Assembly: GCF_023061285.1 (NCBI RefSeq)
Contig: NZ_JAKGAM010000010.1
Coordinates: 62,001 to 126,000 of the forward strand
DNA from: Chromohalobacter nigrandesensis
GTDB taxonomy: Bacteria; Pseudomonadota; Gammaproteobacteria; Pseudomonadales; Halomonadaceae
Direction of reading: 5' to 3'
Length of the DNA stretch: 64,000 nucleotides
The stretch's first letter is position 1; the number at the start of each line of letters is the position of its first letter. Below, one piece after another: positions 40,365 to 54,099 of the stretch. Position numbers and translations under genes: made by a program. The notes beneath the pieces are model-generated. The model did no database searches. It had not been told where the DNA came from and saw only the letters and a list, made by a program, of their open reading frames with translations.

Positions 40365-41687
40365 ATGAACCAAATGAAGAAGACCCTCTCACTGAGCCAG
40401 GTCGTGCTGTTCGGCTTGGCCTACATGACGCCCATCATCGTGCTGGGCACCTTCGGCGTGCTCGCCGTTACCACGCAGGGCGCCGTCTCGGGTGCTTACC
40501 TGGCGGCGCTGATCGCCATGCTGTTCACGGCGCACAGCTACGGGCGCATGGCCAGCGCTTACCCGGTGGCCGGCTCGGCCTATGCCTATGTGCGCCACGC
40601 CATCGACGACCGCCTGGGTTTCATCGCTGGCTGGGCGATCCTGCTCGATTATCTGTTCCTGCCCATGGTGATCTGGCTGATCGGTGCCGCCTATCTGAAC
40701 TCGGCCTTCCCGGCGATTCCCACGCCGTTATGGCTTCTGGCCTTCATTGCCGTCACTACCACGATCAACATCCTCGGCCTCAAACTGGCGAGCGCGATCA
40801 ATAGCGTGATGATGCTGGTGCAGCTCCTGGTGTTGATCGCCTTCGTCGGCCTGAGCATGCATTACGTACTAGGCGATCCCACCCAACCCTTCTGGAGTCT
40901 GACACCGTTCCTGGGAGCCGACTCCGCCGCGATCCTGCCGGTACTGATGGCGGGTGCCGCCGTGGCGTGCTACTCCTTCTTGGGGTTCGATGCCGTCACC
41001 ACGCTGACCGAAGAAACCAAGGACCCACAACGCACTCTGCCGCGTGCCATCCTCTTGATCACCCTGATCGGCGGGCTGATCTTCGTTGTGGTGTCGTATT
41101 TCGTACAACTCGCCGCACCGGGGCATGACTTCGCCAATCCCGATGCCGCGGCTTATGAGATCGCGCGCAACATTGGCGGCGATATCTTCGTCTCGATATT
41201 CCTGATCGGGTTGGTAGTTGGCCAGTTCGCCTCGGGCATCGCCGCGCAGGCCAGCGGCGCGCGCCTGCTCTACGCCATGGGCCGCGACGATGTGCTGCCA
41301 AAGCGCTGGCTGGGCAAATTGAGCCGCTTCGGCACGCCGCTGGGCGGGCTAGTATTCAGCGGTTTGGTCGCCTTGCTGGCGCTGACCATGGACGTGCTCT
41401 CGGCGGCGTCCTTCATCAACTTCGGCGCCTTCCTGGCCTTCGCCCTGGTCAATCTCTCAGTGATCTTCCACTACTACCTGAAGGAGCGCCGCCGCAGCGG
41501 GCTGGATACGCTGTGGTTCCTGATCTGCCCGTTGATCGGCCTGGGCGCGATCCTGTGGCTGATGATGAGCCTGGACCACCTGGCGATCATGCTGGGCAGT
41601 GCGTGGCTGTTGTGCGGCCTGGCGTGGTTGACCTGGCTGACGCGTGGCTTCAGCCGGCCGACACCGGAGCTGAACCTGGAGAGTTGA
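40365..41687 (+). CDS. APC-family amino acid/amine permease
   Basis: A 440-aa transporter with 12 predicted spans. The start LSLSQVVLFGLAYMTPIIVLGTFGVL, YPVAGSAYAYVRHAID and the GFDAVTTLTEETKDPQRTLPRAIL block (about residues 205-228) place it near the PuuP/Ykf-type putrescine and amino acid importers. It lies downstream of the nitrilase gene in one operon. Its last 42 coding bases lie in the 235-bp repeat that recurs at 53.55 kb, the left boundary of the island. Confidence 0.85.
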   Translation: MNQMKKTLSLSQVVLFGLAYMTPIIVLGTFGVLAVTTQGAVSGAYLAALIAMLFTAHSYGRMASAYPVAGSAYAYVRHAIDDRLGFIAGWAILLDYLFLPMVIWLIGAAYLNSAFPAIPTPLWLLAFIAVTTTINILGLKLASAINSVMMLVQLLVLIAFVGLSMHYVLGDPTQPFWSLTPFLGADSAAILPVLMAGAAVACYSFLGFDAVTTLTEETKDPQRTLPRAILLITLIGGLIFVVVSYFVQLAAPGHDFANPDAAAYEIARNIGGDIFVSIFLIGLVVGQFASGIAAQASGARLLYAMGRDDVLPKRWLGKLSRFGTPLGGLVFSGLVALLALTMDVLSAASFINFGAFLAFALVNLSVIFHYYLKERRRSGLDTLWFLICPLIGLGAILWLMMSLDHLAIMLGSAWLLCGLAWLTWLTRGFSRPTPELNLES

Positions 41688-41714
41688 TCATTCAGGGTTA
41701 ATAGCTAAGCGCAC

Positions 41715-41742
41715 CCCGCGACCCGCCCAGGCCGGTCGCGGG
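41715..41742. terminator. Hairpin after APC permease (left repeat copy)
   Basis: CCCGCGACC and GGTCGCGGG form a perfect 9-bp stem with a 10-base loop, 28 bases after the permease stop. In the ancestral locus it would serve both the permease and the convergent ruvX. Confidence 0.55.
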
Positions 41743-41745
41743 CGT

Positions 41746-41880
41746 TTACGGCATGCGTTGCAGGAAGGTGTCGTCGGCGAAGAAGCTTTACAAGATCAAC
41801 TGCGCGGCGATGCCATCCACGCCATCGTCACGGTAGTTGCCACGGTGACCGGCATCGCGGGCGATGCGCTTGGCGGCGCG
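41746..41880 (-). pseudogene. ruvX 3'-end remnant with a nonsense codon
   Basis: The minus strand encodes the last 44 codons of RuvX (RAAKRIARDAGH ... HRGNYRDDG...) as found intact at 53653. Relative to that gene most base changes are synonymous, but a CAA codon (Gln) has become TAA at 41790-41788, and the tail reads FLQRMP instead of FLHRMP. No upstream part exists; the frame ends at the island junction. It is a dead duplicate created when the island entered. Confidence 0.9.
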
Positions 41881-42015
41881 CCTGACAAGGCAGCACCATG
41901 TTGTGATGACGGCTACCTACTGGTATTTAGCACTGGTCACAGATCTCATAAAGACTGAGACATATAATAACCGGCTAGCTTGCTAGCACTGATGCTGGGC
42001 AATAACAAATTAACC

Positions 42016-42786
42016 TCAGGAAATATAGTGATTTAAGCAAACTAAACGCCAGCTTTCTACGGAGTGCCCAAGTGTAATGTAGTAATATGATTGGGAGCTT
42101 GAGTGGGAGAAAGGTTTGAAGAACTCGCCCACTAGGTAACGTGATGAGTTCGAAGCGATGACGCGTAAGTCGTCGTTGACAAGAATGAGTGGCTGGTTCT
42201 GCTCGACCAAGTGAGGTGTTACGACAGCTTCGAGGTTATTAAGGGGTACATCCGCACCGGCAATTCCGAGAAATTGACCATCATATACGATTGGTAACGA
42301 GAAGGTACAGATATACATATCGACCCCCATCATGTCGACGTAGGGGCCGATAACATGCCCTACTCCTTCACACCTCGGCTTATAGAACCAAGGCATATTA
42401 GGGTAATCGTAGAAGGTATCGCCACCTTCATCAAGATTGACTCTCAATGGTATAACGTGACCAGGCTTGACTCCATCCCGCCACCATTCGAGATGCAAAC
42501 GAGTATCCGCTAGAACATTCGGCGCAACGACGAAACCGGCGCCATTAATCTGCACGTTCGTCTCAGAAAGCAACCGTTTGACGGTACCTTGCAATTCGGC
42601 GAGGTCTTTCTTCAGTACCTGTTGACGTTGCCGTTCAGCCAACCCCCATAGGCGGATGATATCATCCCGAACCTTCTCGGCCGTATTGACAATAACGTAT
42701 ACTGACTCTTCGATATTCTTAGCACAAGCACGAACTTTATCGTTACGATCTTCCACCCCGCTATAAAAAAAATCGTTCCGAGTCAT
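42016..42786 (-). CDS. Cytoplasmic Cache (PDC)-domain sensor-like protein
   Basis: A 256-aa protein without signal peptide or membrane segment. Residues about 60-240 resemble a double-Cache/PDC fold: FYDYPNMPWFYKP, GPYVDMMGVDMYICTFSLPIVYDGQFLGIAGADVPLNNLE in short blocks, typical of ligand pockets for amino acids and amines in chemoreceptors. An N-terminal helix (about 15-55) could dimerise. It overlaps the FadR-type gene by four bases (ATGA), so the two proteins are made together; a ligand-sensing partner for the regulator is likely. Cache domains are normally extracytoplasmic, which makes this one unusual. Confidence 0.7.
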   Translation of the reverse strand: MTRNDFFYSGVEDRNDKVRACAKNIEESVYVIVNTAEKVRDDIIRLWGLAERQRQQVLKKDLAELQGTVKRLLSETNVQINGAGFVVAPNVLADTRLHLEWWRDGVKPGHVIPLRVNLDEGGDTFYDYPNMPWFYKPRCEGVGHVIGPYVDMMGVDMYICTFSLPIVYDGQFLGIAGADVPLNNLEAVVTPHLVEQNQPLILVNDDLRVIASNSSRYLVGEFFKPFSHSSSQSYYYITLGHSVESWRLVCLNHYIS

Positions 42787-43553
42787 GAGCTGTCTCCCGT
42801 CCCCATCGCATCGTCGGATGTTTCCAGCCTCAGACGAGCATCAATCACGCGTTCCATATTCTTTTTACACAAATCAGTCGATAATGCACTGGACAATATT
42901 CCGTCGCCTCTAGCGATGGCATCCTCAATTGCCTTAAGCCTATCCACGTAAGCATTGAGAGCCTTGGCATCCAGTGGGTCGATCCACAGGAACATACCGA
43001 GTTCCGACTGGAGCTGCATCTCGGCCTGCGTTAACCGTACAGACTGGGAGACCATGGCAACATTGACATGAAAACGCATATCGGCACGACGCTGGTCGGA
43101 GCGATCCATGGCTTTTTCCATAATGCGGATTTGCTTAGCGATTTGATCGAGATCATCGGCAGTGGCTCGTTCTGCTGCCAATCGAGCGGCATGTCCACTG
43201 ATGGCTGCACGCTCATCGCCATAGTCTCGCAGATCGAAGACACTGTAGCGGCGAAATTCTTGCAGCAACCTGGCATGAGCGATATTGAAGTTCGCTGTGA
43301 CGAAACTGCCGCCTTTGCGGCCCCGACGGGTTTCGACGAAGCCTTGTGCCCGTAGCAGTGACAATGCTTCTCTGACCGTGACCGTCGCAACACCGAACTG
43401 GGAGGCCAGACCGGCTTCACTGGGTAGCTGGCCCCCCTCGCTGAAAATACCCAGGTCAATGGCTTCAATCAACCGACGCACCACCTCTTCGGCCTTACCC
43501 GTGGAGGGAATGCGGAGAAAAGAGACATCTTGTTGGGAAGATAGGTGATTCAT
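42783..43553 (-). CDS. FadR-type GntR-family regulator (FCD)
   Basis: A 256-aa regulator with a winged HTH (IDLGIFSEGGQLPSEAGLASQFGVATVTVREALSLLRAQGF in short blocks, about residues 30-75) and an FCD domain (about 95-235, RMRFHVNVAMVSQS-like: here ADMRFHVNVAMVSQS). It probably controls the island's catabolic genes and itself; a TGTACGTACA palindrome lies 100 bases upstream. The start codon at 43553 gives a natural N-terminus. Coupled to the Cache-domain gene. Confidence 0.85.
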   Translation of the reverse strand: MNHLSSQQDVSFLRIPSTGKAEEVVRRLIEAIDLGIFSEGGQLPSEAGLASQFGVATVTVREALSLLRAQGFVETRRGRKGGSFVTANFNIAHARLLQEFRRYSVFDLRDYGDERAAISGHAARLAAERATADDLDQIAKQIRIMEKAMDRSDQRRADMRFHVNVAMVSQSVRLTQAEMQLQSELGMFLWIDPLDAKALNAYVDRLKAIEDAIARGDGILSSALSTDLCKKNMERVIDARLRLETSDDAMGTGDSS

Positions 43554-43653
43554 CTAGACAGTCCGATGGTAAATTCCATTTTACTACGTGAGAGAATACA
43601 CCATGCTATGACCATCATCACCACTATAAAAAATGTCCAGCAACATACAGTGG

Positions 43654-43663
43654 TGTACGTACA
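43654..43663. promoter_or_regulatory. TGTACGTACA palindrome upstream of the FadR-type gene
   Basis: A perfect 10-bp palindrome with the GT/AC spacing common to FadR/FCD operators, in the 131-bp gap ahead of the regulator and just after the binding-protein-like gene. Candidate autoregulatory site. Confidence 0.5.
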
Positions 43664-43684
43664 TTGCCGGAGCCCCTAAAAGTA

Positions 43685-44410
43685 TCAGTGACGATCAAGC
43701 AATTGGCACTGATCATCAAACGGATAAGCTAGTGTCGGCATCCATCGCTCCCAGGCAGATTCCAGTGAGCCATTTGCAATAATTTCGTCGAGCGCCCAGT
43801 TTACCCTGACCAGCCAGTCGGACTGATTTTTCGCTACCACCGCGCCCCAGACATTGCGCGTCGGCACGGTGAAGGCAATCGTCAAGTCATCGGCTTCCAG
43901 CGGTACGAGCGCGACATCATCATCTACCAAGGCATCGATATCACCTGAACGCAAGGCGGCGACCATGTCGCCGAAGACATCGTCACTGGCCCCGTCAAAG
44001 GGCACCGGTACCGCGCCGCTGAAGGTCTCGGCCAGCGCCATGTTGAGGCTGTTGGCGATCGCCCCGACACGACGACCTTCCAGATGCTGAGACGAAGTGA
44101 TCCCGCTACCCGACCTGACCATCACCGACTCGTCGAAGATGGCATAGGGCTGGGTGAAATCACCCAGCGTCTTGCGATAGTCGGAAATCCCTTGCCCACA
44201 CAGGAGGAGGTCGCCCTCCCCAGCGTCGAGTGCCGGATAGAAATCGCTCCATTGCCGGTAGACCCATTCGACTTGCCGATCCAGTCGTTCGGCGATCAGG
44301 CGGGCGACATCGGCTTCGTAGCCATGCCGCTCGCCCCGTTCATCGCGTTCGAACAGCGGCGGTGCCGGCAGATCGGCACAGATAACCTTAAGCGTGTGAG
44401 ACGCCGTCAT
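43685..44410 (-). CDS. Leaderless family 3 binding-protein-like protein
   Basis: A 241-aa protein with the periplasmic binding protein (SBP_bac_3) fold: LPAPPLFERDERGERHGYEADVARLIAERL (in short blocks, about residues 11-40), DLLLCGQGISDYRKTLGDFTQPY, and the LEGRRVGAIANS hinge region. It starts MTASHTLKVI with AAGGAG upstream and no signal peptide, so it should stay in the cytosol. It overlaps the glutamine-synthetase-like gene by 4 bases and no ABC permease or ATPase is nearby. It may act as an intracellular ligand or product binder or as an enzyme of the pathway; function unknown. Confidence 0.75.
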   Translation of the reverse strand: MTASHTLKVICADLPAPPLFERDERGERHGYEADVARLIAERLDRQVEWVYRQWSDFYPALDAGEGDLLLCGQGISDYRKTLGDFTQPYAIFDESVMVRSGSGITSSQHLEGRRVGAIANSLNMALAETFSGAVPVPFDGASDDVFGDMVAALRSGDIDALVDDDVALVPLEADDLTIAFTVPTRNVWGAVVAKNQSDWLVRVNWALDEIIANGSLESAWERWMPTLAYPFDDQCQLLDRH

Positions 44411-45783
44411 GGTAGATACTCCTTGTACATATCGAGCTCCCACTCGGTGACGGCGGCGCAGTAGCGTGCCCACTCGTCGTGTTTCAGTTCAGCGTAGAGT
44501 GTGGCCAGGGTCTCCGGGAACGCGCCCTTGATGACCGGGTCCTTGTCGAACGCCTCGACCGCTTCACCCAAGGTGAGCGGGATACGGACGCTGGCATCGA
44601 TATCGCGCCCATAACTGCTGGCGTCGCTGCTCTGGCCGGGATCGAGCTGGTTTTCCAACCCGTGCTCGATCGCTGCCAACAGCGCGGTATGCGACAAGTA
44701 AGGGTTCACGCTAGCATCCGGCATCTTGTATTCCAGACGGCCGACCGCCGAGAGCCTGACGCTGCAGGTCTTGTTGTCCATGCCCCAGTTCACCTGAGCG
44801 GGGGCGAACTGGCCGACATCCCAAAAGCGCTTGTAGGAGTTGACGGTCGAGGCCATGATCAGCATGGACGCCGGAGTATGTTTCAGCATGCCGCCCAGCG
44901 AGTAGCGAGCGACATCGCTCAGATGCAGTTCAGTACGCCCCTCTTCCTGGAAGGCGTTGGTATCGCCCCGCCACAGGCTGAGGTTGTGGTGACAGCCGTT
45001 GCCCATGCCGCCGGTATAGGGTTTGGGCATGAAGCTGGCCGTGACGCCGAACTCCTTGGCGACCTGACGGCAGATCTGGCGATACAGCACCAGGCGATCC
45101 GCCGTCAGTTCACAGGTATCGAACATCCAGTTGAGTTCGAGCTGATACGGGTCCTCGTAGTCCCCTTCGATCATGTCGAAACCCATCTCGGTCGCGTAGT
45201 CGATGACCTTCTGGTAGATGGGACGCATGAGCTCCAGGTTGCTGAGCTGGTAAGCCGGGCTGGCATCCGGTCGCGGATGGATCTTCATGGAATCACCCAA
45301 CCAGGACATTTCCGGTTCGCATCCGGATTTGAGCTGCATGCCCTGGCGCTCCGTGAACCCTTCATGGGCACGGATCAGCAGACCACGCGGATCGGTCGAT
45401 AGGGGCTGCCCGCCAACCTCAAGTCGATGACCAGGCTCGTAGACCCGGCAAAGAAACGCCCCGACGGAGCGATCCCAGGGCAGGACTCGGAACGTATCCA
45501 GATCCGGCATAGCGGTAAATTCAGCCGCCTGCGTACCACCACCCAGCAACTCACCATAGCGGTTACATTGCATATTGCTGATGGCGGTACGATGGAACTG
45601 AATGCCCTTGGCCAGATTCCTCTCCAACTGAGTCGCCGGTACGACCTTGGCCAGCAGTTTCCCTCCCAGGGTGACAACCTGGTAATAGATATACTTGACC
45701 CCAGCTTCCTGGATGCGTGCACGGATCTCCTGGATCTTCACGTCATCCATGTTCTTTTCGATATGCGAATTCAGGGCGGTCAT
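44407..45783 (-). CDS. Glutamine synthetase-like gamma-glutamyl-amine ligase
   Basis: A 458-aa protein of the glutamine synthetase fold, in the PuuA/GlnA3-type branch that joins glutamate to an amine with ATP. Metal and substrate residues are visible in SGCEPEMSWLG (about residues 152-162), MIEGDYEDPYQLELNW, NGCHHNLSLW (catalytic-site His) and MDNKTCSVRLS (Arg). It lacks the adenylylation segment of housekeeping GlnA. AGGAAG precedes the ATG. With an aldehyde dehydrogenase and two amidotransferase-like hydrolases in the same island it mirrors the Puu pathway; the amine is unidentified. Confidence 0.85.
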   Translation of the reverse strand: MTALNSHIEKNMDDVKIQEIRARIQEAGVKYIYYQVVTLGGKLLAKVVPATQLERNLAKGIQFHRTAISNMQCNRYGELLGGGTQAAEFTAMPDLDTFRVLPWDRSVGAFLCRVYEPGHRLEVGGQPLSTDPRGLLIRAHEGFTERQGMQLKSGCEPEMSWLGDSMKIHPRPDASPAYQLSNLELMRPIYQKVIDYATEMGFDMIEGDYEDPYQLELNWMFDTCELTADRLVLYRQICRQVAKEFGVTASFMPKPYTGGMGNGCHHNLSLWRGDTNAFQEEGRTELHLSDVARYSLGGMLKHTPASMLIMASTVNSYKRFWDVGQFAPAQVNWGMDNKTCSVRLSAVGRLEYKMPDASVNPYLSHTALLAAIEHGLENQLDPGQSSDASSYGRDIDASVRIPLTLGEAVEAFDKDPVIKGAFPETLATLYAELKHDEWARYCAAVTEWELDMYKEYLP

Positions 45784-45810
45784 GTGTAACTTCCTATACT
45801 GTTGTTGATG

Positions 45811-47223
45811 TTATGACGCTTCGGACGCGCCGGGATGCTTTTTGCTACCGATCTGCCAAAGTCGTACGATCCAATAGAAAAGTGCAGTCACTAAGAAGGT
45901 GGGCAGGCCTGCACTGATATATAGAAACAGCGGACCTGGTGAATCGGCTACGGGGTTGTAGGACCAAAAGTAAAAAATTCCGCCTAGAATTATGGCAACA
46001 CAAGCCGCATAATTGATGCCACTCTGATACCGATAAATCAGTGACGACTGGTCATACATACCAACCATATCAATCTTGTAACGTCGGATGATAACAAGCT
46101 CGGTAACCAGCACTGCCCCAAAAGCAGCCATGATGAACGAGATATACGAGAGGAAAGTGGTGTAGCCGTCGTAGAATGTAGGTGTCAGCATCAGTAGTAT
46201 GGCAGGCAACGTCGTGGCAATCGCCCTAGCCCATGGCCACTGAGGGAACATCGTCTTAATACTGATTCCCTGCGAGTAGACCAAAATTGTCGCCGAAGTC
46301 AGGTTCGCCAGGATCAGCAGTATCAGACCCAATATACCGAAGATGGGACCACCAGCGGAGATCATCCACTTAGCCGGATCATACACGCCGACCAGTAGTG
46401 CTGTAAGTGCTCCCAGTATAGCCGCGATATTAAGCAGAACACCCCAACCAATGAAGCTACCCCATACAGCTATCTTCTCGGTTTTAGCTAGCCGACACCA
46501 CTGGCCAAAATAGGCTGCCCAAGAGAATCCCAAACCAACGTTCCATTCGATTGCCGACATTAGGCCACGCTGTGGGTCATCATAGGGAGAGGCAGGCACG
46601 GCATTAAAGGCTTTATCCAATCCTTCTACCCACAGAATGTAGAAAATCAGTCCGGCGATAATCGCAAAAATCGTTGGCACACCGACGCGATTGAAAATTT
46701 TAATGGCTATGGGACCTTTGTAAGCGATCATCCAAGCAACCACAAAAGCACTTATCGCAAAGATCGGCGCCCCAATCGAGCGATCAGTCATCCAGGCAGG
46801 CATGTTGAACTCAGCGAACAGCGTTGTGAAGGATTCGCCGAGCATAAATGTTGCCATTGTCATAAACCCTAAGTTTATGACTATAAATATAAACATAAAT
46901 ATATTGCTGCCCAGCCAACCGAGAACAGCACGTGCACCGATAAAGGTATCTACCCCATATCGACAGAAGAATTTGGCCAATCCAAGCAACATCAGAACCG
47001 GCATCGCATTACCGAAGAGAATGACGGGAATCGCCTGACTGGCCGGCAGGACACTGCCAGTATAGCCACCGATCAGGAAACTCCATGCCGCGATACCGAA
47101 CCCCACCATCATCATGACGTAATCCGTCAATCCAAAGGGGCGTTCATTGGACATTGCCGGCAATATCCCGAAATGGGACGCCGCCTCGTCTTGGGAGGGT
47201 TGGGTCTTGGGACTCGTGTTCAT
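45811..47223 (-). CDS. NCS1-like purine-cytosine-type permease of the island
   Basis: A 470-aa transporter with about 12 spans. Landmarks: FGLTDYVMMMVGFGIAAWSFLIGGYTGS (short blocks, about residues 30-57), FFCRYGVDTFIGARAVLG, GLGFSWAAYFGQWCRLAK and the C-terminal YRYQSGINYAA. Codon use is richer in A/T-ending codons than in the core genes. It probably imports the substrate of the pathway. It ends 27 bases before the ligase gene and is preceded by a gene for a 52-aa membrane peptide, all on one strand. Confidence 0.85.
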   Translation of the reverse strand: MNTSPKTQPSQDEAASHFGILPAMSNERPFGLTDYVMMMVGFGIAAWSFLIGGYTGSVLPASQAIPVILFGNAMPVLMLLGLAKFFCRYGVDTFIGARAVLGWLGSNIFMFIFIVINLGFMTMATFMLGESFTTLFAEFNMPAWMTDRSIGAPIFAISAFVVAWMIAYKGPIAIKIFNRVGVPTIFAIIAGLIFYILWVEGLDKAFNAVPASPYDDPQRGLMSAIEWNVGLGFSWAAYFGQWCRLAKTEKIAVWGSFIGWGVLLNIAAILGALTALLVGVYDPAKWMISAGGPIFGILGLILLILANLTSATILVYSQGISIKTMFPQWPWARAIATTLPAILLMLTPTFYDGYTTFLSYISFIMAAFGAVLVTELVIIRRYKIDMVGMYDQSSLIYRYQSGINYAACVAIILGGIFYFWSYNPVADSPGPLFLYISAGLPTFLVTALFYWIVRLWQIGSKKHPGASEAS

Positions 47224-47273
47224 TGTTGACCTCTAAACATTTGTTGTTGTGGAAAAGGTCCGGAGACTAAGAG

Positions 47274-47432
47274 CTACAGACTTAGCAGTAACAGCACGGT
47301 TATCAACGCACAGGCGCCGATCGGCATGAGCCAGTCTCCTGTTGTCATTTCTTCAGGTCGCTCCCCACCTTCAATGCGGGAAATGCGGTTCATCAGGTCT
47401 TGTTGGGTCTTGTCATCTAGGTTGGTATTCAT
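47274..47432 (-). CDS. Small membrane protein (52 aa) linked to the NCS1 permease
   Basis: A reading frame starting MNTNLDDKTQQDLMNRIS: a charged N-terminal half (residues 1-33, probably cytosolic) and one hydrophobic segment at about residues 34-52 (LMPIGACALITVLLLL). AGGTG lies 7-8 bases before the ATG. It sits between the ferredoxin and permease genes with 61 and 50 bp gaps. It could be an accessory subunit of the permease; no family recognised. Confidence 0.6.
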   Translation of the reverse strand: MNTNLDDKTQQDLMNRISRIEGGERPEEMTTGDWLMPIGACALITVLLLLSL

Positions 47433-47493
47433 GTCACACACCTGCGGTTGTTGTTAATCGTTTTTGTTGCGGCAGTACCGTGGTGTCACGGCG

Positions 47494-47682
47494 TTATTCG
47501 ACAATCGTGATCGCCTGCTCGGGACACACGTCGGCCGCTTCTTCCGCGACATCGCGTAAACTGTCGTCGGGAAGTTCCTCATACTGCAGCGTGCCGTTGT
47601 CGTCGAAGCGAAAGATTTCGGGCGCCGCAATGACGCACTGCCCGTGATCCTGGCACTTGCCTCTATCCACGCAGACTTTCAT
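47494..47682 (-). CDS. 3Fe-4S ferredoxin of the P450 system
   Basis: A 62-aa ferredoxin starting MKVCVDRGKC with AAGGAG seven bases upstream (an ATG six bases earlier is too close to it). Cluster ligands are Cys10, Cys16 and Cys53 (GKCQDHGQC ... DVCPEQ); a histidine replaces the second Cys of the 4Fe-4S motif, which gives the 3Fe-4S type used by bacterial P450s. It carries electrons from the reductase at 51459 to the P450 at 50235, though it is encoded on the opposite strand about 2.5 kb away. Confidence 0.9.
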   Translation of the reverse strand: MKVCVDRGKCQDHGQCVIAAPEIFRFDDNGTLQYEELPDDSLRDVAEEAADVCPEQAITIVE

Positions 47683-48041
47683 CGCCATTCTCCTTACGGC
47701 TTGGGGCATGGACCGGAGCCTCGTGTGTCAGAAACATCGGCCCCGGTGTCGCTTGAAACATATGTCACCATATTTTTACTGTCAAACATTCCTGAAAAAA
47801 CCCACCACTAGCCACTACAATCGCGGCCACCATCGACAATGACCGTATGGCTCATCTGAAAACCACCCAAGATTCAAAAATAAAATATATTTAAATCAAT
47901 ATATTTATATTACTTTTTCGAGCTGTTCAATCATACATTTGACATAGAATGTTTTAAATCATATGGTTCATTGACAGATCCGGCCCACCCGGACCGGCCT
48001 TTCCTGAATCACAAGGACAACCACATCCAGGATTTAAAAAC
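47683..48041. other. Divergent AT-rich control region of the island
   Basis: This 359-base gap separates the leftward (ferredoxin, small protein, permease, ligase, binding-protein-like) from the rightward (ALDH, amidotransferase, P450, reductase) operons. It holds a strongly AT-rich stretch (47877-47930) and the promoter listed separately; no coding frame is credible. It is the natural place for the FadR-type regulator to act, but I see no exact copy of TGTACGTACA here. Confidence 0.6.
47939..47967 (+). promoter_or_regulatory. Candidate sigma70 promoter of the ALDH-P450 operon
   Basis: TTGACA (47939-47944) and TATGGT (47962-47967) with an exact 17-base spacer, about 70 bases upstream of the aldehyde dehydrogenase start. 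By eye only. Confidence 0.5.
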
Positions 48042-49493
48042 ATGTTTAATAACAATGCGTTAAGCAATCATCTGTGGATCAACGGCCGCGCCTGCCAAGC
48101 GAGTTCGGGACGACAATTCGAGTGTCTCTCGCCACGTGATGGCACTCTCCTCGCCACGATAGCTGCAGGCGAAAAGGCCGATATCGATCTCGCCGTCACT
48201 GCCGCACGAGCCGCAGCGGACAACTGGTCACGCCGTAGCCCTCAGGAGCGCCGGCAACACTTGTTGCGCCTGGTCGACCTCATGGAGTCCCACCACGAGG
48301 AACTCGCCCAACTGGAGAGTCGCGATACCGGCAAGCCGATCACCCATGCGCGCCGTGATGATATTCCGCTCGCCATTCGCTGCGTGCGCTTTTACGCCGA
48401 GGCCATCGACAAGTGTTATGACCAGATCGCCCCTACGGCGTCCGATGTGCTGGCCACGATTCGTCGCGAACCACTGGGCGTGGTCGGTGCCGTCGTGCCG
48501 TGGAACTTCCCGTTGATGATTGCCTGCTGGAAACTGGCCCCTGCCCTGGCCGTCGGCAATACGGTCGTTCTCAAACCGGCGGAACAATCCCCGTTGACGG
48601 CCATACGGCTGGCGGAACTGGCCACCGAGGCCGGCCTGCCGGATGGCGTCCTGAATGTGGTGCCCGGTTATGGCGAAACCGCCGGCGCGGCGCTGGGTCT
48701 GCATCCCGATGTCGATGCCATCAGTTTCACGGGCTCGGGGGGCGTCGGCCGCCTGTTTCAACGCTATGCCTCCGACTCCAACATGAAGGCTGTCTTTGTG
48801 GAGTGCGGGGGCAAGAGCCCGCAGATCGTGTTCGACGACGCCGAGAATCTCGACGAGGTCGCGGCGGCCGTCGCCCAGGGAATCTGTTACAACCAGGGGC
48901 AGGTCTGCAGCGCCGGCTCCCGCCTGCTGTTACAGCGCTCGATCGCGGATGATTTCATGCAGCGGGTCCTGGCCCATGTCGACCGCTGGCAGCTCGGCGA
49001 CCCGATGGACGATTCGACGACAATGGGAGCCATGATCGAGAAGCCGCATCTGGCCCGCGTCCAGAATCTGATCGATACCGGTCATGAACAGGGCGCGGAA
49101 TTGGTCTACCGGGGACAGTCGTTCGATTCCCTGGATGGTTTCTACATGCCGGCCACCGTGTTCGATCATGTCAGCCGCGGGATGACCATCGCCCAGGAAG
49201 AGATCTTCGGTCCGGTACTGGCCGTGACCCGCTTCGATAGCGACGACGAAGCGCTCGCCGAGGCCAACGGCACCCGCTACGGTCTGGCGGCGGCTGTCTG
49301 GACATCCTCATTGTCACGAGCGCATCGCGTCAGCCAGGGCCTGAAAGCCGGTACCGTCTGGGTCAATAACTATGATGGCAGCGACATCACGGTACCGTTC
49401 GGCGGGTTCGGCGAGTCCGGCAATGGCCGTGACAAGTCCCTGCACGCGCTCGACAAGATGTCGCAACTCAAGACCACGTGGATTCAATTCTGA
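48042..49493 (+). CDS. NAD(P)-dependent aldehyde dehydrogenase
   Basis: A 483-aa class I/II ALDH near the PuuC and betaine-aldehyde dehydrogenase group. Active-site elements: VVPWNFPLMIACWKLAPAL (about residues 147-165), GSGGVGRLF cofactor loop, VECGGKSPQIV (general-base Glu), GQVCSAGSR (nucleophile Cys about 287) and the late EEIFGPVL. It probably oxidises an aldehyde formed from the glutamylated or oxidised amine. First gene of the rightward operon, AGGA upstream of the ATG, 12 bp before the amidotransferase-like gene. Confidence 0.9.
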   Translation: MFNNNALSNHLWINGRACQASSGRQFECLSPRDGTLLATIAAGEKADIDLAVTAARAAADNWSRRSPQERRQHLLRLVDLMESHHEELAQLESRDTGKPITHARRDDIPLAIRCVRFYAEAIDKCYDQIAPTASDVLATIRREPLGVVGAVVPWNFPLMIACWKLAPALAVGNTVVLKPAEQSPLTAIRLAELATEAGLPDGVLNVVPGYGETAGAALGLHPDVDAISFTGSGGVGRLFQRYASDSNMKAVFVECGGKSPQIVFDDAENLDEVAAAVAQGICYNQGQVCSAGSRLLLQRSIADDFMQRVLAHVDRWQLGDPMDDSTTMGAMIEKPHLARVQNLIDTGHEQGAELVYRGQSFDSLDGFYMPATVFDHVSRGMTIAQEEIFGPVLAVTRFDSDDEALAEANGTRYGLAAAVWTSSLSRAHRVSQGLKAGTVWVNNYDGSDITVPFGGFGESGNGRDKSLHALDKMSQLKTTWIQF

Positions 49494-49505
49494 GCCGAGG
49501 TCCTG

Positions 49506-50198
49506 ATGACCCTTTCATCTGCGATAGTCCTGTTACACAGCAAAGAGGATACGACCGGCAGCCTGCCGGCGATTCTCGACGAACACGCTCTCGATATCGA
49601 CATTCGCTATGTCGATGACACGTTGCCCGATCCCGGCGACGATCAACTGGTCATCGTCATGGGCTCGATTGAATCACCCTACGACCATACGCTGCCCTGG
49701 CTGTCCGGCGAACTGGCCTGGCTGAAGTCATTGATCGAGCGCAATCACCCGGTATTCGGGATCTGCTTCGGCAGTCAGGTACTGGCCCGCGCCCTCGGCG
49801 GCGAAACCTATCGCAATCACGCGCCGGAGATCGGCTGGACACCGGTCGAGACCACCGACCCCGCGCTCCTGCCGAGCGGCCCGTGGCTGAATTTCCATTT
49901 CGATGCCTTTACCGCACCGCCTGCCGCGCGGCTTCTCGCCAGCACGTCCATGTCGCACCAGGCGTATATCCACCGGCAGCAGATGGGGATGCAGTTTCAT
50001 CCGGAGATCACTCCGGCGATGTTCGATTCCTGGCTGGCGGCTTGGGAGCAGATGGCATCGGGCCGGCAATTTCTCGCCGACCATCCGGACATTCCCGGAC
50101 GGCTCAGACAGGAGATCGCCGACAACGAAGTGGACAACCGGAACCGCTTCAGGCAGGTATTCAGCGCCTACCTGAATCGGGTAAGCCGCGCGTCATAG
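49506..50198 (+). CDS. Class I glutamine amidotransferase-like hydrolase (1)
   Basis: A 230-aa stand-alone GATase1 with triad Cys87 (FGICFGSQ), His165 and Glu167 (MQFHPEIT). There is no synthase domain, so it would hydrolyse a gamma-glutamyl amide bond by itself, comparable in role (not in sequence family) to PuuD. It is the second gene of the ALDH-P450 operon. A C-terminal extension of about 45 residues after the catalytic domain is polar and helical. Confidence 0.82.
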   Translation: MTLSSAIVLLHSKEDTTGSLPAILDEHALDIDIRYVDDTLPDPGDDQLVIVMGSIESPYDHTLPWLSGELAWLKSLIERNHPVFGICFGSQVLARALGGETYRNHAPEIGWTPVETTDPALLPSGPWLNFHFDAFTAPPAARLLASTSMSHQAYIHRQQMGMQFHPEITPAMFDSWLAAWEQMASGRQFLADHPDIPGRLRQEIADNEVDNRNRFRQVFSAYLNRVSRAS

Positions 50199-50234
50199 AC
50201 CACGGATTTCAATAACAACCACCAGGTGACCGAC

Positions 50235-51443
50235 ATGAACACGGCAACGCAAGACACCCTCGATAGTGCATACTTCAATGTTTCCGATCCGGATTTCGTC
50301 ATTCACTCCCAGGCAGTGCATGACGCCCGGGAACGAAACTGGTTCGCCAGAACGAATTACGGCCTGGCGGTACTGCGCTATGAAGAGATGAAAACGCTGC
50401 TTCGCCACCCCAAGTTGCGGCAAGGCAGTGCTGCCTGGCCCCGCCACAATGGCGTGACGGAAGGCAAGTTCGCCGACTGGTGGAATGAAGTCTTGCTCAA
50501 CAAGGAAGGCCCGGATCACGCCAGGCTGCGTCGACTGGTCAATCCGGCGTTCTCACCCAAGGTGCTGGAGCAGATGAATCCGCGTTTCCAGGCGCTGGCG
50601 CAGGAACTGATCGATGCCATGGTGGCGAAGGGCGAGTGCGAGTTCATGAGCGAGTTCGCCGAGCCGTATGCGGCGCGGGTCATTTGCATCATGCTGGGGC
50701 TACCCGAGAGCGAGTGGAACACGATCGCCAAGTGGTCGGCCACGCTCGGGCTGGCACTGGGTATCACGCTGAAACAGGATCTGCCTCGCATCGAGGAGGC
50801 GCTGGAGGGCCTGTATCACTATGCAGATCAGTTGATCGATGATCGTTTAGCCAACCCTGGCGACGATTTCGTGTCCAAACTGGTTCTGGCGCAGCGGGAT
50901 GACGATGCCTTGAGTCATGATGAGCTGCGGATCATGCTCGTGCTGTTGATCTTCGGCGGCATGGACACGACCCGCAACCAGCTCGGCCTGGGCATGGAAT
51001 CGTTCATGCAGCACCCGGACCAGTGGGAGCGTCTTGCTGAGCGACCGGAATTGGCCAGTAACGCCGTGGGCGAGGTCATGCGAACCAACCCCACCGTGAC
51101 CTGGGTGACTCGGGAAGCTATCGAGACCTTCGAATTTCAAGGTTTGCAGATCGACGCCGGAACGACCGTTCACCTGTTTTCCCAGGCTGCCGGGACGGAC
51201 CCGCGAGCGATGCCGGACCCCAGCTTCAATATCGAGGCCGAACGCCCGCCCCACTTCGGGTTTGGTGGCGGCACCCATCACTGTCTGGGCCACTTCATCG
51301 CCAAGAGCGACATGAGCATTGCCATGCCGTTGCTGGCCCGGCACATGACTCGGATCCGCCTCAACGGCGACCCCCAGTGGCTGCCCCGCAGCGGCAATAC
51401 CGGGCCGGTATCGCTTCCCTTGACCTTCCAGGTTCGCCGGTAA
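50235..51443 (+). CDS. Cytochrome P450 monooxygenase (class I, soluble)
   Basis: A 402-aa bacterial P450. Helix I has GGMDTT (residues 241-246) in place of the usual AGxDTT, the K-helix ExxR is Glu280-Arg283, and the haem loop FGFGGGTHHCLG has the proximal ligand Cys350. The start ATG 50235 follows AGGTGA; a GTG nine bases earlier is also open. Its redox partners, a 3Fe-4S ferredoxin and an FAD reductase, are in the same island. A likely reaction is hydroxylation or N-dealkylation of the amine substrate; unproven. Confidence 0.93.
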   Translation: MNTATQDTLDSAYFNVSDPDFVIHSQAVHDARERNWFARTNYGLAVLRYEEMKTLLRHPKLRQGSAAWPRHNGVTEGKFADWWNEVLLNKEGPDHARLRRLVNPAFSPKVLEQMNPRFQALAQELIDAMVAKGECEFMSEFAEPYAARVICIMLGLPESEWNTIAKWSATLGLALGITLKQDLPRIEEALEGLYHYADQLIDDRLANPGDDFVSKLVLAQRDDDALSHDELRIMLVLLIFGGMDTTRNQLGLGMESFMQHPDQWERLAERPELASNAVGEVMRTNPTVTWVTREAIETFEFQGLQIDAGTTVHLFSQAAGTDPRAMPDPSFNIEAERPPHFGFGGGTHHCLGHFIAKSDMSIAMPLLARHMTRIRLNGDPQWLPRSGNTGPVSLPLTFQVRR

Positions 51444-51458
51444 CGAGGAGAGACGCTC

Positions 51459-52709
51459 ATGGCAGAGGGAATCGTTATCGTCGGCAGTTCTTTGGCGGGT
51501 CTCCGCAGTGCCGAGCAGTTGCGCAGCCAGGGCTGGGAGGGGGCGATCACCCTGGTCGGTGAGGAGCCTTACCTGCCCTACAATCGTCCACCGCTTTCCA
51601 AGCAGGCGCTGAGCGATGCCCGGACGCTTTCACTGGAGAGCCTTCATGAAACAGTCGCGCTCGGGCTGAAACCGCGTCTGGGCGAGGTCACCTGGCAACT
51701 CGGGAGACGCGCTGTCTCGTCGGATCTGGCAAACCAGCGTATCACGCTGGATGACGGTCAGGCGCTCTCTTACACCGGGCTGGTCATTGCGACCGGACTG
51801 CGTTCTCGCTCGCTTCCCGTCCACGGCGGCGAATCGCAACGTTATCGGCTCCGAAACCTGAATGATGCCTGGCAACTGGCGCAGGGCCTGACCGAAGGCT
51901 GTCGTATCACCATTGCCGGCGCCGGCTTCATCGGCTGCGAACTGGCCGCCACAGCCACGCGGCTGGGGTGCACCGTGAACGTCATCGATGCCGCGCCAGC
52001 ACCGCTCGTCAATGTCATGGGATCGCCATTCGCCGACGCTCTGTTGCAATACCATCAACGGCATGGCGTGTCCTTCCATCTCGACACCCTGATCGCCGAG
52101 ATCGCGGAAGACGAGCGGGGCAATCTGCAAACCGTCGCGCTCAGCAACGGCACAACGATCGATACTGACATTCTGGTCGAGGCGATCGGCAGCCAACCGA
52201 ACACGGCGTGGCTGGACGGCAACGGCATCGATATCACCGACGGGGTACAATGCCAGAGCGACATGTCGGTACCGGGCCATGGCAACGTAATTGCCGTTGG
52301 CGACATTGCCCGTTTCAACAACCCGCTCTTCGATGATGTCTGCCGTCGTATCGAGCACTGGAACATCGCGGTCGAAACGGCAAGGACAGGCGCTGTTACC
52401 CTATTAAGCCATTTGGGCGACACACCGCGGACGCGACCGGAGGACACGAAACCAATCGTGCCCTCATTCTGGAGTGATCAATTCGATATCAAGATTCAGG
52501 GTATCGGGCTCCCGTCGATCGCCGATAGCACGGAGCCTCTGGATGGCAGCCTTCATCAGGGCATTAGCGATAGCAGCCTGTTTGCCATGGGATACTACCG
52601 GGACGGCAGACTGACGGGGATCATCTCCATCAACGGGGAAAAGAAACAGCCCGATTACCGCAACATGTTACTGGATGCTTTGCAGACGGCGGACACAGAA
52701 ACCACTTGA
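51459..52709 (+). CDS. FAD-dependent ferredoxin reductase
   Basis: A 416-aa NAD(P)H-ferredoxin reductase of the putidaredoxin-reductase type. FAD-binding GSSLAGLRSAEQLR (about residues 9-22), EEPYLPYNRPPLSK, NAD-binding IAGAGFIGCELAATATRLG (about 152-170), and GDIARFNN of the second FAD motif are seen. A C-terminal reductase domain (about 325-400, FWSDQFDIKIQGIG) completes it. It starts 15 bases after the P450 gene and supplies its electrons. Confidence 0.92.
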   Translation: MAEGIVIVGSSLAGLRSAEQLRSQGWEGAITLVGEEPYLPYNRPPLSKQALSDARTLSLESLHETVALGLKPRLGEVTWQLGRRAVSSDLANQRITLDDGQALSYTGLVIATGLRSRSLPVHGGESQRYRLRNLNDAWQLAQGLTEGCRITIAGAGFIGCELAATATRLGCTVNVIDAAPAPLVNVMGSPFADALLQYHQRHGVSFHLDTLIAEIAEDERGNLQTVALSNGTTIDTDILVEAIGSQPNTAWLDGNGIDITDGVQCQSDMSVPGHGNVIAVGDIARFNNPLFDDVCRRIEHWNIAVETARTGAVTLLSHLGDTPRTRPEDTKPIVPSFWSDQFDIKIQGIGLPSIADSTEPLDGSLHQGISDSSLFAMGYYRDGRLTGIISINGEKKQPDYRNMLLDALQTADTETT

Positions 52710-52748
52710 ACAACTGCATGATGCAAAATAGATGATCTCGGACACGAT

Positions 52749-53465
52749 ATGAAAGCACTTTCTCTCTGCATCATTGAAAATGGCCTGGTGCCGGATGGCC
52801 TAAAGTCACGATTCGGTTCCTACCCGGACATGATCCGGCAGTGGCTGTCACCAAGCCTTCCCGAAGCCAGTTTCGACGAATGCTCGCCCGTCTCCGGCGA
52901 AGCGCTGCCCGCTGCAGATGCTTACGACGGCTATCTGCTGACGGGCTCACGCCACAGCAGTTATGAGGACGGCGACTGGATCCGCGATATCCGGCAGTTC
53001 CTGCGCCAGGCCATCGATCTCGAGCGCCCGGTCTTCGGGATCTGTTTCGGCCACCAGATCATGGCGGATGCCTTCGGTGGCCAGACCATCAAGGCAGACA
53101 ATGGCTGGGGGGTCGGCGCCCAGGAATATACCGCCTCCTTGGGGATGCCCAACGACAAGGCGGGGGTCTTCGTCTTCCACCAGGACCAGGTCACGTCCGT
53201 TCCTCCAGCGGCGAAGGTGATCGGTGGCTCCGCCCACTGCCCCAACGGCGTTCTTGAATACAGCTTTCCCGCACTCTCCGTGCAATTTCATCCGGAATTC
53301 CCCGCTGAATATGTTGAAACGCTCGCCAACAAATACGGGGGAGATGTCATTCCCACGGACACGAGCCAAGCCGCCATCGCCAGCCTGAAGAACATTCCAG
53401 TGGATAACACTAGACTAGCTAGCAACGTTGCAGGATTTTTCAGGAAATGGACGGAAAGTGGGTAA
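52749..53465 (+). CDS. Class I glutamine amidotransferase-like hydrolase (2)
   Basis: A 238-aa GATase1 of the GMP-synthase-like stand-alone group, with triad Cys99 (FGICFGHQ), His181 and Glu183 (VQFHPEFP). It is only distantly similar to the first amidotransferase in the operon; a FHQDQVTSVP segment typical of this subgroup precedes the triad His. Two such enzymes suggest two different gamma-glutamyl intermediates, for example before and after oxidation. It is the last gene of the island, 87 bp before the right repeat. Confidence 0.82.
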   Translation: MKALSLCIIENGLVPDGLKSRFGSYPDMIRQWLSPSLPEASFDECSPVSGEALPAADAYDGYLLTGSRHSSYEDGDWIRDIRQFLRQAIDLERPVFGICFGHQIMADAFGGQTIKADNGWGVGAQEYTASLGMPNDKAGVFVFHQDQVTSVPPAAKVIGGSAHCPNGVLEYSFPALSVQFHPEFPAEYVETLANKYGGDVIPTDTSQAAIASLKNIPVDNTRLASNVAGFFRKWTESG

Positions 53466-53552
53466 AACCAAGCGCGATGCACGTCATACTAATAGCTCTT
53501 GCGTCTGACTGCTTCAAAAAGCTACTAAAAAGGCAACTGTGCTTTGAAAATG

Positions 53553-53787
53553 GGCTTCAGCCGGCCGACACCGGAGCTGAACCTGGAGAGTTGATCATTC
53601 AGGGTTAATAGCTAAGCGCACCCCGCGACCCGCCCAGGCCGGTCGCGGGCGTTTACGGCATGCGGTGAAGGAAGGTGTCGTCGGCGAAGAAGCTTTGCAA
53701 GATCAACTGCGCGGCGATGCCATCCACGCCGTCGTCGCGGTAGTTGCCACGATGACCGGCATCGCGGGCGATGCGCTTGGCGGCGCG
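53553..53787 (+). repeat. 235-bp direct repeat, right copy
   Basis: Right partner of 41646-41880. Here the ruvX part belongs to the intact gene (53653-54099), while the permease part is a 3' fragment of the APC gene (42 coding bases with stop at 53592-53594) left without its gene. Confidence 0.95.
53622..53649. terminator. Hairpin after ruvX (right repeat copy)
   Basis: Same perfect 9-bp stem (CCCGCGACC / GGTCGCGGG) as at 41715, now 3 bases beyond the ruvX stop. Confidence 0.55.
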
Positions 53788-54099
53788 TGTGGAGCCGCGT
53801 TCGTCGAACACCTCTACTGGCTTGCCGAAACGCCCGTGCAGGCGGTTACCGAACTTGCGCGCGCGCTGACTCATGTCCGACTCGGTGCCATCCATGTTGA
53901 GCGGCAGCCCCACGACCAAAAGATCCGGCTGCCATTCCTCGAGCAACGCCTCGATCTGCTGCCAATCGGGAATCCCGTCACGCGCGGGTAGCGGTGCCAG
54001 GGCCGTGGCACTGCCCAGCATTTCGTTGCCGACCGCCACGCCGATGCGCCGCGTGCCGTAATCGAAGGCCAGTACCAGCCGCTGCCCTGCCTCGGCCAT
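53653..54099 (-). CDS. ruvX: RuvX/YqgF-family putative Holliday junction resolvase / pre-16S rRNA nuclease
   Basis: A 148-aa RNase H-fold protein. The catalytic Asp13 lies in LAFDYGTRRIGVAVG, with VVGLPLNMDGTES and FDERGSTRAAKRIARD as the other active-site blocks. In E. coli YqgF processes the 5' end of 16S rRNA; a Holliday junction role is also discussed. It overlaps yqgE by one base (TGATG). Its 3' end is duplicated at 41746 as part of the island boundary. Confidence 0.92.
   Translation of the reverse strand: MAEAGQRLVLAFDYGTRRIGVAVGNEMLGSATALAPLPARDGIPDWQQIEALLEEWQPDLLVVGLPLNMDGTESDMSQRARKFGNRLHGRFGKPVEVFDERGSTRAAKRIARDAGHRGNYRDDGVDGIAAQLILQSFFADDTFLHRMP

Follow-up and report, generated by a model that had tools for sequence, protein, structure and literature searches.

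The genome of Chromohalobacter nigrandesensis carries, within the stretch of 64,000 nucleotides analyzed here (contig NZ_JAKGAM010000010.1, positions 62,001 to 126,000; hereafter the window), a gene island at window positions 41881–53552 that combines a glutamine synthetase (GS)-like ligase with a cytochrome P450 and its redox partners. We consider it reasonably probable that this island is an operon pair by which a cyclic secondary amine, of the pyrrolidine or piperidine (possibly morpholine) type, is utilized, and in which the P450 would open the ring and the product would then be glutamylated, oxidized by an aldehyde dehydrogenase (ALDH) and hydrolyzed. Clusters of piperidine and morpholine P450s have reportedly carried an adjacent "glutamine synthetase" gene since their first descriptions. 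If our reading of the ligase is true, a class of degraders of industrial and natural cyclic amines uses a protecting-group strategy like that of the Puu route, which would explain why a GS-like gene without a settled role accompanies these P450s.

Gene Content of the Island

Relatives of the ligase were collected by a pattern-led scan over 84,980 species genomes, which yielded 158, and the best 80 (54–98% identical) were analyzed with their surroundings. As these loci were picked by likeness to the window ligase, the counts given throughout apply to its near family, and they are lower bounds because contig ends cut some loci. A preliminary description of the window, made from the sequence alone, had listed a ligase, an ALDH, two amidotransferase-type hydrolases, a P450, a ferredoxin, an FAD reductase, an NCS1 permease, and regulators, and profile searches recovered all of them. 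Members that it did not name are a protein of the SBP_bac_3 (solute-binding protein, SBP) fold, a PDC/cache protein (which its regulators may have included), and a one-helix protein of 55 amino acids. The genes are as follows:

42016–42786, minus strand: sensor-like PDC/cache protein that lacks a membrane helix and forms a pair with GntR (PF22673, 42.3 bits)
42783–43553, minus strand: GntR/FCD transcriptional regulator in a PipR-like position (PF00392 and PF07729; in 70 of the 80 loci)
43685–44410, minus strand: SBP_bac_3-fold protein without a signal peptide (PF00497, 85.9 bits)
44407–45783, minus strand: GS-like putative gamma-glutamyl-amine ligase (PF00120, 254 bits)
45811–47223, minus strand: NCS1-family permease (PF02133, 56.2 bits)
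47274–47441, minus strand: 55-residue single-helix membrane protein (no Pfam match; 96% in L006 and L007, 55% in L097)
47494–47682, minus strand: single-cluster ferredoxin (open reading frame to 47709, likely start at 47682; PF13459, 48.1 bits; PF13370, 46.6 bits)
48042–49493, plus strand: PuuC-like ALDH (PF00171, 563 bits; best match the PuuC model NF007352 with 636 bits, cut-off of 850 not reached)
49506–50198, plus strand: class-I glutamine amidotransferase (GATase)-type hydrolase 1, putative gamma-glutamyl hydrolase (PF00117, 58.3 bits; best Protein Data Bank (PDB) match 7d54, E 9e-33)
50226–51443, plus strand: cytochrome P450, CYP151-like (PF00067, 83.4 bits; 64% identity with the P450 of M. 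austroafricanum, locus L062)
51459–52709, plus strand: FAD-dependent ferredoxin reductase (PF07992, 182 bits; PF14759, 34.9 bits)
52749–53465, plus strand: class-I GATase-type hydrolase 2, putative gamma-glutamyl hydrolase (PF00117, 64 bits; best PDB match gamma-glutamyl peptidase 1, E 1e-16)

The minus strand is transcribed in the order ferredoxin, 55-residue membrane protein, NCS1 permease, ligase, SBP-fold protein, and then GntR regulator and cache protein; on the plus strand the order is ALDH, GATase-type hydrolase 1, P450, FAD reductase, and GATase-type hydrolase 2. The 55-residue protein, lying between ferredoxin and permease, could be a small permease subunit or an accessory protein. 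Motifs were read directly in the P450 (FGFGGGTHHCLG) and in the hydrolases (GICFGSQ and GICFGHQ, with FHPE), and the ferredoxin is of the 3Fe-4S type by its motif (CxxHxxC...CP). This gene set is not a chance assembly, because such families are sparse in the genome itself (just 2 P450, 5 GS-type, and 11 PF00117 matches in 3.64 Mb) and the block recurs in other genera: the whole of it is also present in two Aidingimonas species (ca. 86% DNA identity) and in L097, from another genus of the family (68–72% DNA identity, in four pieces).

Proposed Pathway

Gene content and profile matches support the combination of a gamma-glutamylation route with a complete P450 chain, as had been put forward in the preliminary description. 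Its suggestion that a P450 replaces the oxidase of the Puu route agrees with the finding that none of the ten island proteins scanned is a PuuB-type FAD oxidase (the reductase matches DAO below the cut-off). We infer substrate, reactions, step order, ligands, and regulatory action to be the following. The amine would be taken up through the NCS1 carrier, for which the PDB gave no sequence match at E 0.001 and so no hint of the ligand. Electrons would pass from NAD(P)H through the FAD reductase and the ferredoxin to the P450, which would hydroxylate the carbon adjacent to the nitrogen, and opening of the resulting hemiaminal would give an omega-amino aldehyde that equilibrates with the cyclic imine. 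At this point the ligase, with ATP, would couple the free amine of the aldehyde to the gamma-carboxyl of glutamate and thereby block re-cyclization. Oxidation of the gamma-glutamyl amino aldehyde would fall to the PuuC-like ALDH, after which a GATase-type hydrolase would free glutamate and the omega-amino acid, either gamma-aminobutyrate (GABA) or 5-aminovalerate, which would go to transaminases of the host. From the aldehyde onward these steps would retrace the lower part of the Puu route. The SBP-fold protein, cytosolic and translationally coupled to the ligase, would hold the gamma-glutamyl intermediate or glutamate, and the GntR repressor with its cache partner would sense the amine and control both divergent promoters. 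We place the P450 first because the MorA system is reported, in the excerpts considered of PMC9477822, to take free morpholine, a report that disfavors the order implied earlier, with the P450 acting after glutamylation.

The Ligase and Its Remodeled Active Site

The ligase was aligned to the GlnA encoded elsewhere in its own genome. It retains the metal-binding residue at five positions out of six (E156, E158, E216, H265, and E351), the sixth, a Glu in GlnA, being D208, and R319 and R343 are also conserved. GlnA D113 is replaced by H64, the flap residue E391 by F326, and H335 by N267, and these three replacements are identical in 83 of 83 family rows. We take D113 and E391 to be Asp50 and Glu327 of the enteric enzyme, the acids of the ammonium site. 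Three remote rows outside the 83 (L086, L088, and L089) have also lost them, with W, W, and G in the first place and W, W, and F in the second. The ligase scored 213 bits against the GGputSyn model (NF045547), below the cut-off of 650, and its nearest solved relative by sequence is the glutamate-methylamine ligase 9qur (E 7e-62). It is probably not a glutamine synthetase. The loss of both ammonium-site acids, together with a gamma-glutamyl-hydrolase-type neighbor in 76 of the 80 loci, argues for the gamma-glutamylation of an amine (the C26-type neighbor in L062 matches PuuD and related solved proteins), and the "glutamine synthetase" of clusters of the pip/mor type is, judged from these residues and neighbors, most likely a gamma-glutamyl ligase.

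Conservation and Reshuffling among Relatives

A comparison of ligase neighborhoods, which had been proposed as a check, bears out the association. The SBP-fold protein directly follows the ligase in 79 loci, a hydrolase of some type is found in 76, and a P450 in 74, in 69 of these at most 3 kb from the ligase; the six loci without a P450 (L015, L023, L032, L037, L041, and L061) have less than 900 bp of contig upstream of the ligase. The hydrolases are Peptidase_C26/PuuD-like in 67 loci and GATase-type in 13 (both in 4), and at least two are present in 58 of the 80, as in the window. That the hydrolase family switches and yet a hydrolase stays, often in two or more copies, argues for a needed deglutamylation step. 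Besides GntR regulators (70 loci) and cache proteins (69), we found ferredoxins in 55 loci, window-type reductases in 44, flavodoxins in 12, an ALDH of any kind in 49, and class-III transaminases in 14. The NCS1 carrier had been taken as a hint of a cyclic, base-like substrate; this hint loses its force, given an APC-type permease in 58 of the 80 relatives and NCS1 in 3, one of them weak (26%).

It is evident that P450 and ligase form the constant pair of the module and that the redox partners vary. A flavodoxin and a different reductase are found in Pseudomonas, Ventosimonas, and Bisbaumannia loci, as well as in Leucobacter and Gulosibacter, and they stand in place of ferredoxin and reductase in two clades that lie apart in the P450 tree (L008 and L010–L014; L067, L069, L075, L078, L080, and L083). 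The locus of Paracoccus sp. TOH has a diflavin reductase and that of Ruegeria a 2Fe-2S protein. In the P450 tree the window P450 groups with the actinobacterial L009 (100/98) and not with the Pseudomonas P450s, while in the ligase tree (a chosen subset of 43 rows) the window ligase groups with gammaproteobacterial ligases (99/93). The module has thus been reshuffled.

Some loci depart from the common arrangement. Streptomyces inusitatus (L035) has just the P450 and the ligase of the families searched, without SBP-fold protein, hydrolase, or regulator, a possible biosynthetic use. On plasmids of Paracoccus sp. TOH (p2, L086) and Ruegeria (L088), a P450 is accompanied by genes of the gamma-glutamyl-hydrolase type and by two GS-like genes lying side by side. 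We take Paracoccus sp. TOH to be a piperazine degrader, and piperazine, with its two nitrogens, might need two ligases. An apparent fusion of SBP-fold protein and hydrolase in L032, L034, and L037 was rejected as an artefact, with a stop codon inside. For a relative from Rhodococcus sp. JS3073 the sequence record carries no annotation.

Kinship to Known Systems and Substrate Leads

The order CYP151/pipA-fdx-glnA is described for Mycobacterium (excerpts of PMC10516948), and the M. austroafricanum locus L062 shows this P450-fdx-GS order, with a ligase 56% identical to that of the window. Identity of the window P450 to P450s with a similar gene order in Mycolicibacterium, Leucobacter, and Gulosibacter is 52–65%. 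According to excerpts of the Gulosibacter study (PMC9477822), the P450s of that genus are about 53 and 52% identical to PipA of M. smegmatis and MorA of strain HE5, and the adjoining locus tags are those of glutamine synthetase genes; PipA was induced on piperidine, a title cited there adding pyrrolidine, and MorA with its redox partners oxidized morpholine. With such kin the term "undescribed" in the preliminary description was too strong. The action of the same gene set on a known substrate elsewhere, named there as evidence that would speak against it, was found in part, in these PipA and MorA relatives (PMC9477822, same excerpts).

Like the pip/mor clusters of Mycobacterium and Gulosibacter, the island contains a P450 with a ferredoxin and a reductase, a GS-like gene, and a GntR regulator. 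Unlike them, it carries an NCS1 permease where they have an APC permease and GATase-type hydrolases where theirs are of the C26 type, it is laid out as two divergent operons, and it includes a PuuC-like ALDH; its type of reductase was not seen in L062 and most of the other mycobacterial loci compared here. With the Puu route of Escherichia coli (PuuA-PuuB-PuuC-PuuD) it shares a putative ATP-dependent gamma-glutamylation, a PuuC-like ALDH, and the logic of a gamma-glutamyl hydrolase, and it differs in the P450 chain that stands for the PuuB-type oxidase. The hydrolases belong to another branch, as relatives of GATase and gamma-glutamyl peptidase and not orthologues of PuuD. Among solved structures, the glutamate-methylamine ligase is nearest by sequence; from it and from other GS-like amine ligases the island ligase differs in its coupled SBP-fold partner.

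Neighboring genes in some loci offer leads to the substrate. In Pseudomonas oleovorans (L011) the cluster lies beside a GABA transaminase (851 bits vs. a cut-off of 713), a succinate-semialdehyde dehydrogenase (1019 vs. 828), and a relative (80% identical) of an L010 dehydrogenase that passes the cut-off of an aminobutyraldehyde dehydrogenase subfamily (777 vs. 615) but not that of the stricter TIGR03374 (723 vs. 909); L012 also has a succinate-semialdehyde dehydrogenase (993 bits). These neighbors would fit a C4 route from pyrrolidine to GABA. A C5 route from piperidine to glutaryl-CoA is weakly suggested by six of the 80 loci (L046, L055, L062, L070, L074, and L081) with a GABA-type transaminase, a family-III CoA-transferase, and an acyl-CoA dehydrogenase, and the latter two are found without the transaminase in L022, L025, L027, and L078. 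In the window genome, two GABA transaminases above the cut-off are encoded outside the island.

A further relative is found on plasmid pGKT2 of Gordonia sp. KTR9 (L087, 10497–17508), where GntR, cache, P450 (65%), and a ligase-like stretch (53%) follow in the same order. Unlike in the island, this cluster directly precedes a reductase and a flavodoxin-like/P450 gene, which we take to be XplB and XplA of the breakdown of the explosive RDX. From this arrangement, the explosive-degrading system may stem from a cyclic-amine cluster.

Three features may be new, namely the gamma-glutamyl logic, the coupled cytosolic SBP-fold protein, and a cache protein that resembles amine sensors: among the matches listed in a literature search (the first 20 of 1,197 for one query), no paper treated gamma-glutamylation in the breakdown of cyclic amines. 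Work on piperidine genes has reportedly been done in a Pseudomonas strain, KU43P, and no paper by that name was found.

Points against the Reading and Alternative Explanations

Several observations weigh against the pathway proposed here. Neither GATase-type protein reaches the cut-off of any of the NCBIfam models shown, four of the 80 loci have no hydrolase (L035 and L053, with 21 kb each, L052, with 9 kb, and L037, with 3.4 kb), an ALDH is PuuC-like by best match in just 28 loci, and 31 have no ALDH match within the DNA examined. Neither the GABA nor the glutarate set of genes lies in the island itself, and the L074 CoA-transferase reached 339 bits with its best model, succinate-glutarate CoA-transferase, against a cut-off of 750. 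The assignment of the P450 to CYP151, which asks for more than 40% identity to CYP151A members (PipA, MorA), would follow from gene order and from identities quoted for other species. In the excerpts of the Gulosibacter study, the hydroxylated seven-membered ring is proposed to give a lactam (caprolactam) and not an amino aldehyde, the GS is tied to nitrogen assimilation, and pipA was not clearly induced, bioI being induced (PMC9477822). Excerpts of another source read cyp151 as a gene of pyrene breakdown (PMC10301208).

One alternative, which we hold to be unlikely, is that the ligase acts first, the amine being gamma-glutamylated and the gamma-glutamyl amide then hydroxylated by the P450. 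This would keep the order of the Puu and isopropylamine (Ipu) routes, with a P450 for the oxidase; ligase, P450, ALDH, and hydrolase are all at hand in the island, and the SBP-fold partner could bind such a conjugate equally well. However, no GS-type ligase is known to use a secondary ring amine as nucleophile, and the cache protein resembles an amine sensor rather than an amino-acid sensor. The oxidation of free morpholine reported for the MorA system also speaks against it (PMC9477822, in the excerpts considered).

The substrate might instead be acyclic, such as a dialkylamine or a diamine. P450s are capable of N-dealkylation, the island lacks GABA and glutarate genes, and in Paracoccus sp. 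TOH and Ruegeria the plasmid relatives have an additional GS-like gene and different surroundings, which indicates that the chemistry has varied. Against this, the GABA-type neighbors in some loci fit a ring opening to omega-amino acids, and the kin described in the excerpts of PMC9477822 act on ring amines, so that we judge an acyclic substrate with an N-dealkylating P450 to be improbable here.

It is very improbable that the GS-like protein merely assimilates ammonia derived from the amine while the amidotransferase-type proteins serve otherwise. The GS fold and five of the six metal ligands are kept, and the Gulosibacter genes have been tied to nitrogen assimilation (PMC9477822, excerpts); but both ammonium-site acids are lost in every one of the 83 rows, gamma-glutamyl-hydrolase-type genes accompany the ligase in nearly all loci, and a true GlnA is encoded elsewhere in the genome (L001). 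A biosynthetic or detoxification cluster, for which the reduced Streptomyces locus L035 could be quoted, is hardly credible given the hydrolases, repressors, and APC permeases of 76, 70, and 58 of the 80 loci, together with the transaminase and dehydrogenases of some.

Two Binding-Fold Proteins of Probable Cytosolic Location

The analysis also nominates two unusual ligand-binding proteins. The ATG of the SBP-fold gene overlaps the ligase stop codon (ATGA), and its homologues start at the same offset from that stop in 74 of 79 loci. In the structural model (predicted local distance difference test, pLDDT, 92.8) the first strand begins at residue 6, which, with a start inside the ligase stop codon, leaves no room for a signal peptide. 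Hydrophobicity was tried as proof of a cytosolic location and discarded: the window protein reaches a maximum of 0.69 in its first 60 residues and none of 82 family members exceeds 1.6, the highest being 1.38, but the single secreted control reaches just 1.41. Structure matches of the amino-acid-binding fold include ancestral Arg/Gln-binding proteins, SocA with deoxyfructosyl-glutamine, and GlnBP, and the first twelve matches have query template modeling (TM) scores of 0.76–0.81. A profile alignment to 4zv1 sets the invariant R79 and D164 of the family on ligand-contact positions, presumably those of the carboxylate-binding arginine and the amino-binding aspartate. The modeled fold thus points to a protein that would bind an alpha-amino acid, most likely the gamma-glutamyl intermediate or glutamate, since no other compounds of the pathway carry an alpha-amino-acid head.

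The cache gene and the GntR gene form adjacent pairs, 69 in the 80 loci. Ten of the first twelve fold matches of the cache model (pLDDT 89.6) are CqsR (serinol, ethanolamine), PctD, TlpQ, McpU (putrescine), and McpX, with moderate query TM scores of 0.57–0.70, and amino-acid receptors and one uracil receptor rank lower. All of these are receptors known for amines. As reference for the dCache_1AM amine motif we used PctD W155, F188, M215, S217, and D235, with R103 and D133 above the pocket. The invariant W101, T161, and D179 and the near-invariant W133 of the cache family lie at plausible motif positions, by spacing judged by eye, with R103 and D133 left unassigned and a single PDC module. An arginine of PctA binds the carboxylate of amino acids (excerpts of PMC10104139), and such an arginine is absent at the matching cache position. 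From the fold matches and the absent arginine the protein looks like a sensor of amines and not of amino acids. A hydrophobic stretch above 1.6 in 21 of 69 cache-family open reading frames (with untrimmed starts) speaks against a cytosolic location in those relatives, and the location is hence safest for the window protein alone.

A tentative picture of both proteins, which we think possible but rather doubtful, is that the ligase and its coupled, signal-less cytosolic SBP, kept across two phyla, work together: the SBP would grip the glutamyl head with R79 and D164 and either pass the aldehyde conjugate to ALDH and hydrolase or gauge the flux, and the cytosolic cache protein would be the amine arm of the GntR repressor. 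If true, two classic extracytoplasmic binding folds would have been shifted into the cytosol for one pathway.

Divergent Promoters

Between the two operons lie two promoters that share one pattern:

47757–47785, minus strand: promoter of the minus-strand operon, TTGACA-17-TATGTT, overlapping CATATGTTTCA
47939–47967, plus strand: promoter of the plus-strand operon, TTGACA-17-TATGGT, overlapping CATATGGTTCA

The pattern TTGACA-N17-TATGKT occurs twice in the window (0.00 expected from shuffling), as does CATATGKTTCA (0.01 expected), and CATATGKTTCA followed by N3-8 and A is found at these two places alone in the 3.64-Mb genome; these counts are descriptive and not tests, because the two sites were the source of the patterns. 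Independent support for co-regulation comes from the three relatives in which the pair is kept. TTGACA-N17-TATGKT is present at both sites of each of four genomes (8 of 8) from three genera (the window genome, L006, L007, and L097), as conserved blocks around a diverged middle; the longer CATATGKTTCA is missing from L097 and from the minus-strand site of L007. Co-regulation of the divergent operons, set beforehand as a test of the preliminary description, is accordingly rated as probable from these promoter sequences.

Boundaries and Recent Acquisition

The island, of 11,672 bp, is the exact interval between two direct repeats that are identical at 229 of 235 positions (97%):

41646–41880, no strand: left 235-nt direct repeat, comprising the last 42 nt of an APC permease gene and a truncated ruvX 3' end
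53553–53787, no strand: right 235-nt direct repeat, running into the intact ruvX (53653–54099, minus strand)

The flanking genes, one for an APC-type permease and the other ruvX/yqgF, converge, and both remain whole because their 3' ends lie in the repeat and are thus present in duplicate. Seven of nine congeners (L101–L107) have an empty site, with permease and ruvX adjacent and the 235 nt present once (for L107, with just 69% identity in the permease portion), and in the remaining two (L108 and L109) the match is limited to the ruvX side. The island P450 is present in 5 of 151 Halomonadaceae genomes, that of the window included, and in none of the nine congeners. These repeats, the empty site, and the patchy distribution of the P450 show that the island was acquired horizontally and recently; the module has thus been caught moving between genera as an island. 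The GC content falls as low as 0.48 in parts of the island, against 0.63–0.66 in the flank (1-kb steps, 36 to 41 kb). The island is packed with genes, the largest gap being 332 nt (47710–48041), and therefore no integrase gene is left inside.

An attempt to tell the origin of the left repeat from divergence was abandoned, both copies being about equidistant from eight congener copies (the left slightly nearer to six, the right to one, and one equal). As to the mechanism, the 235-nt duplication would be better explained by a single crossover with an incoming circle than by transposition.

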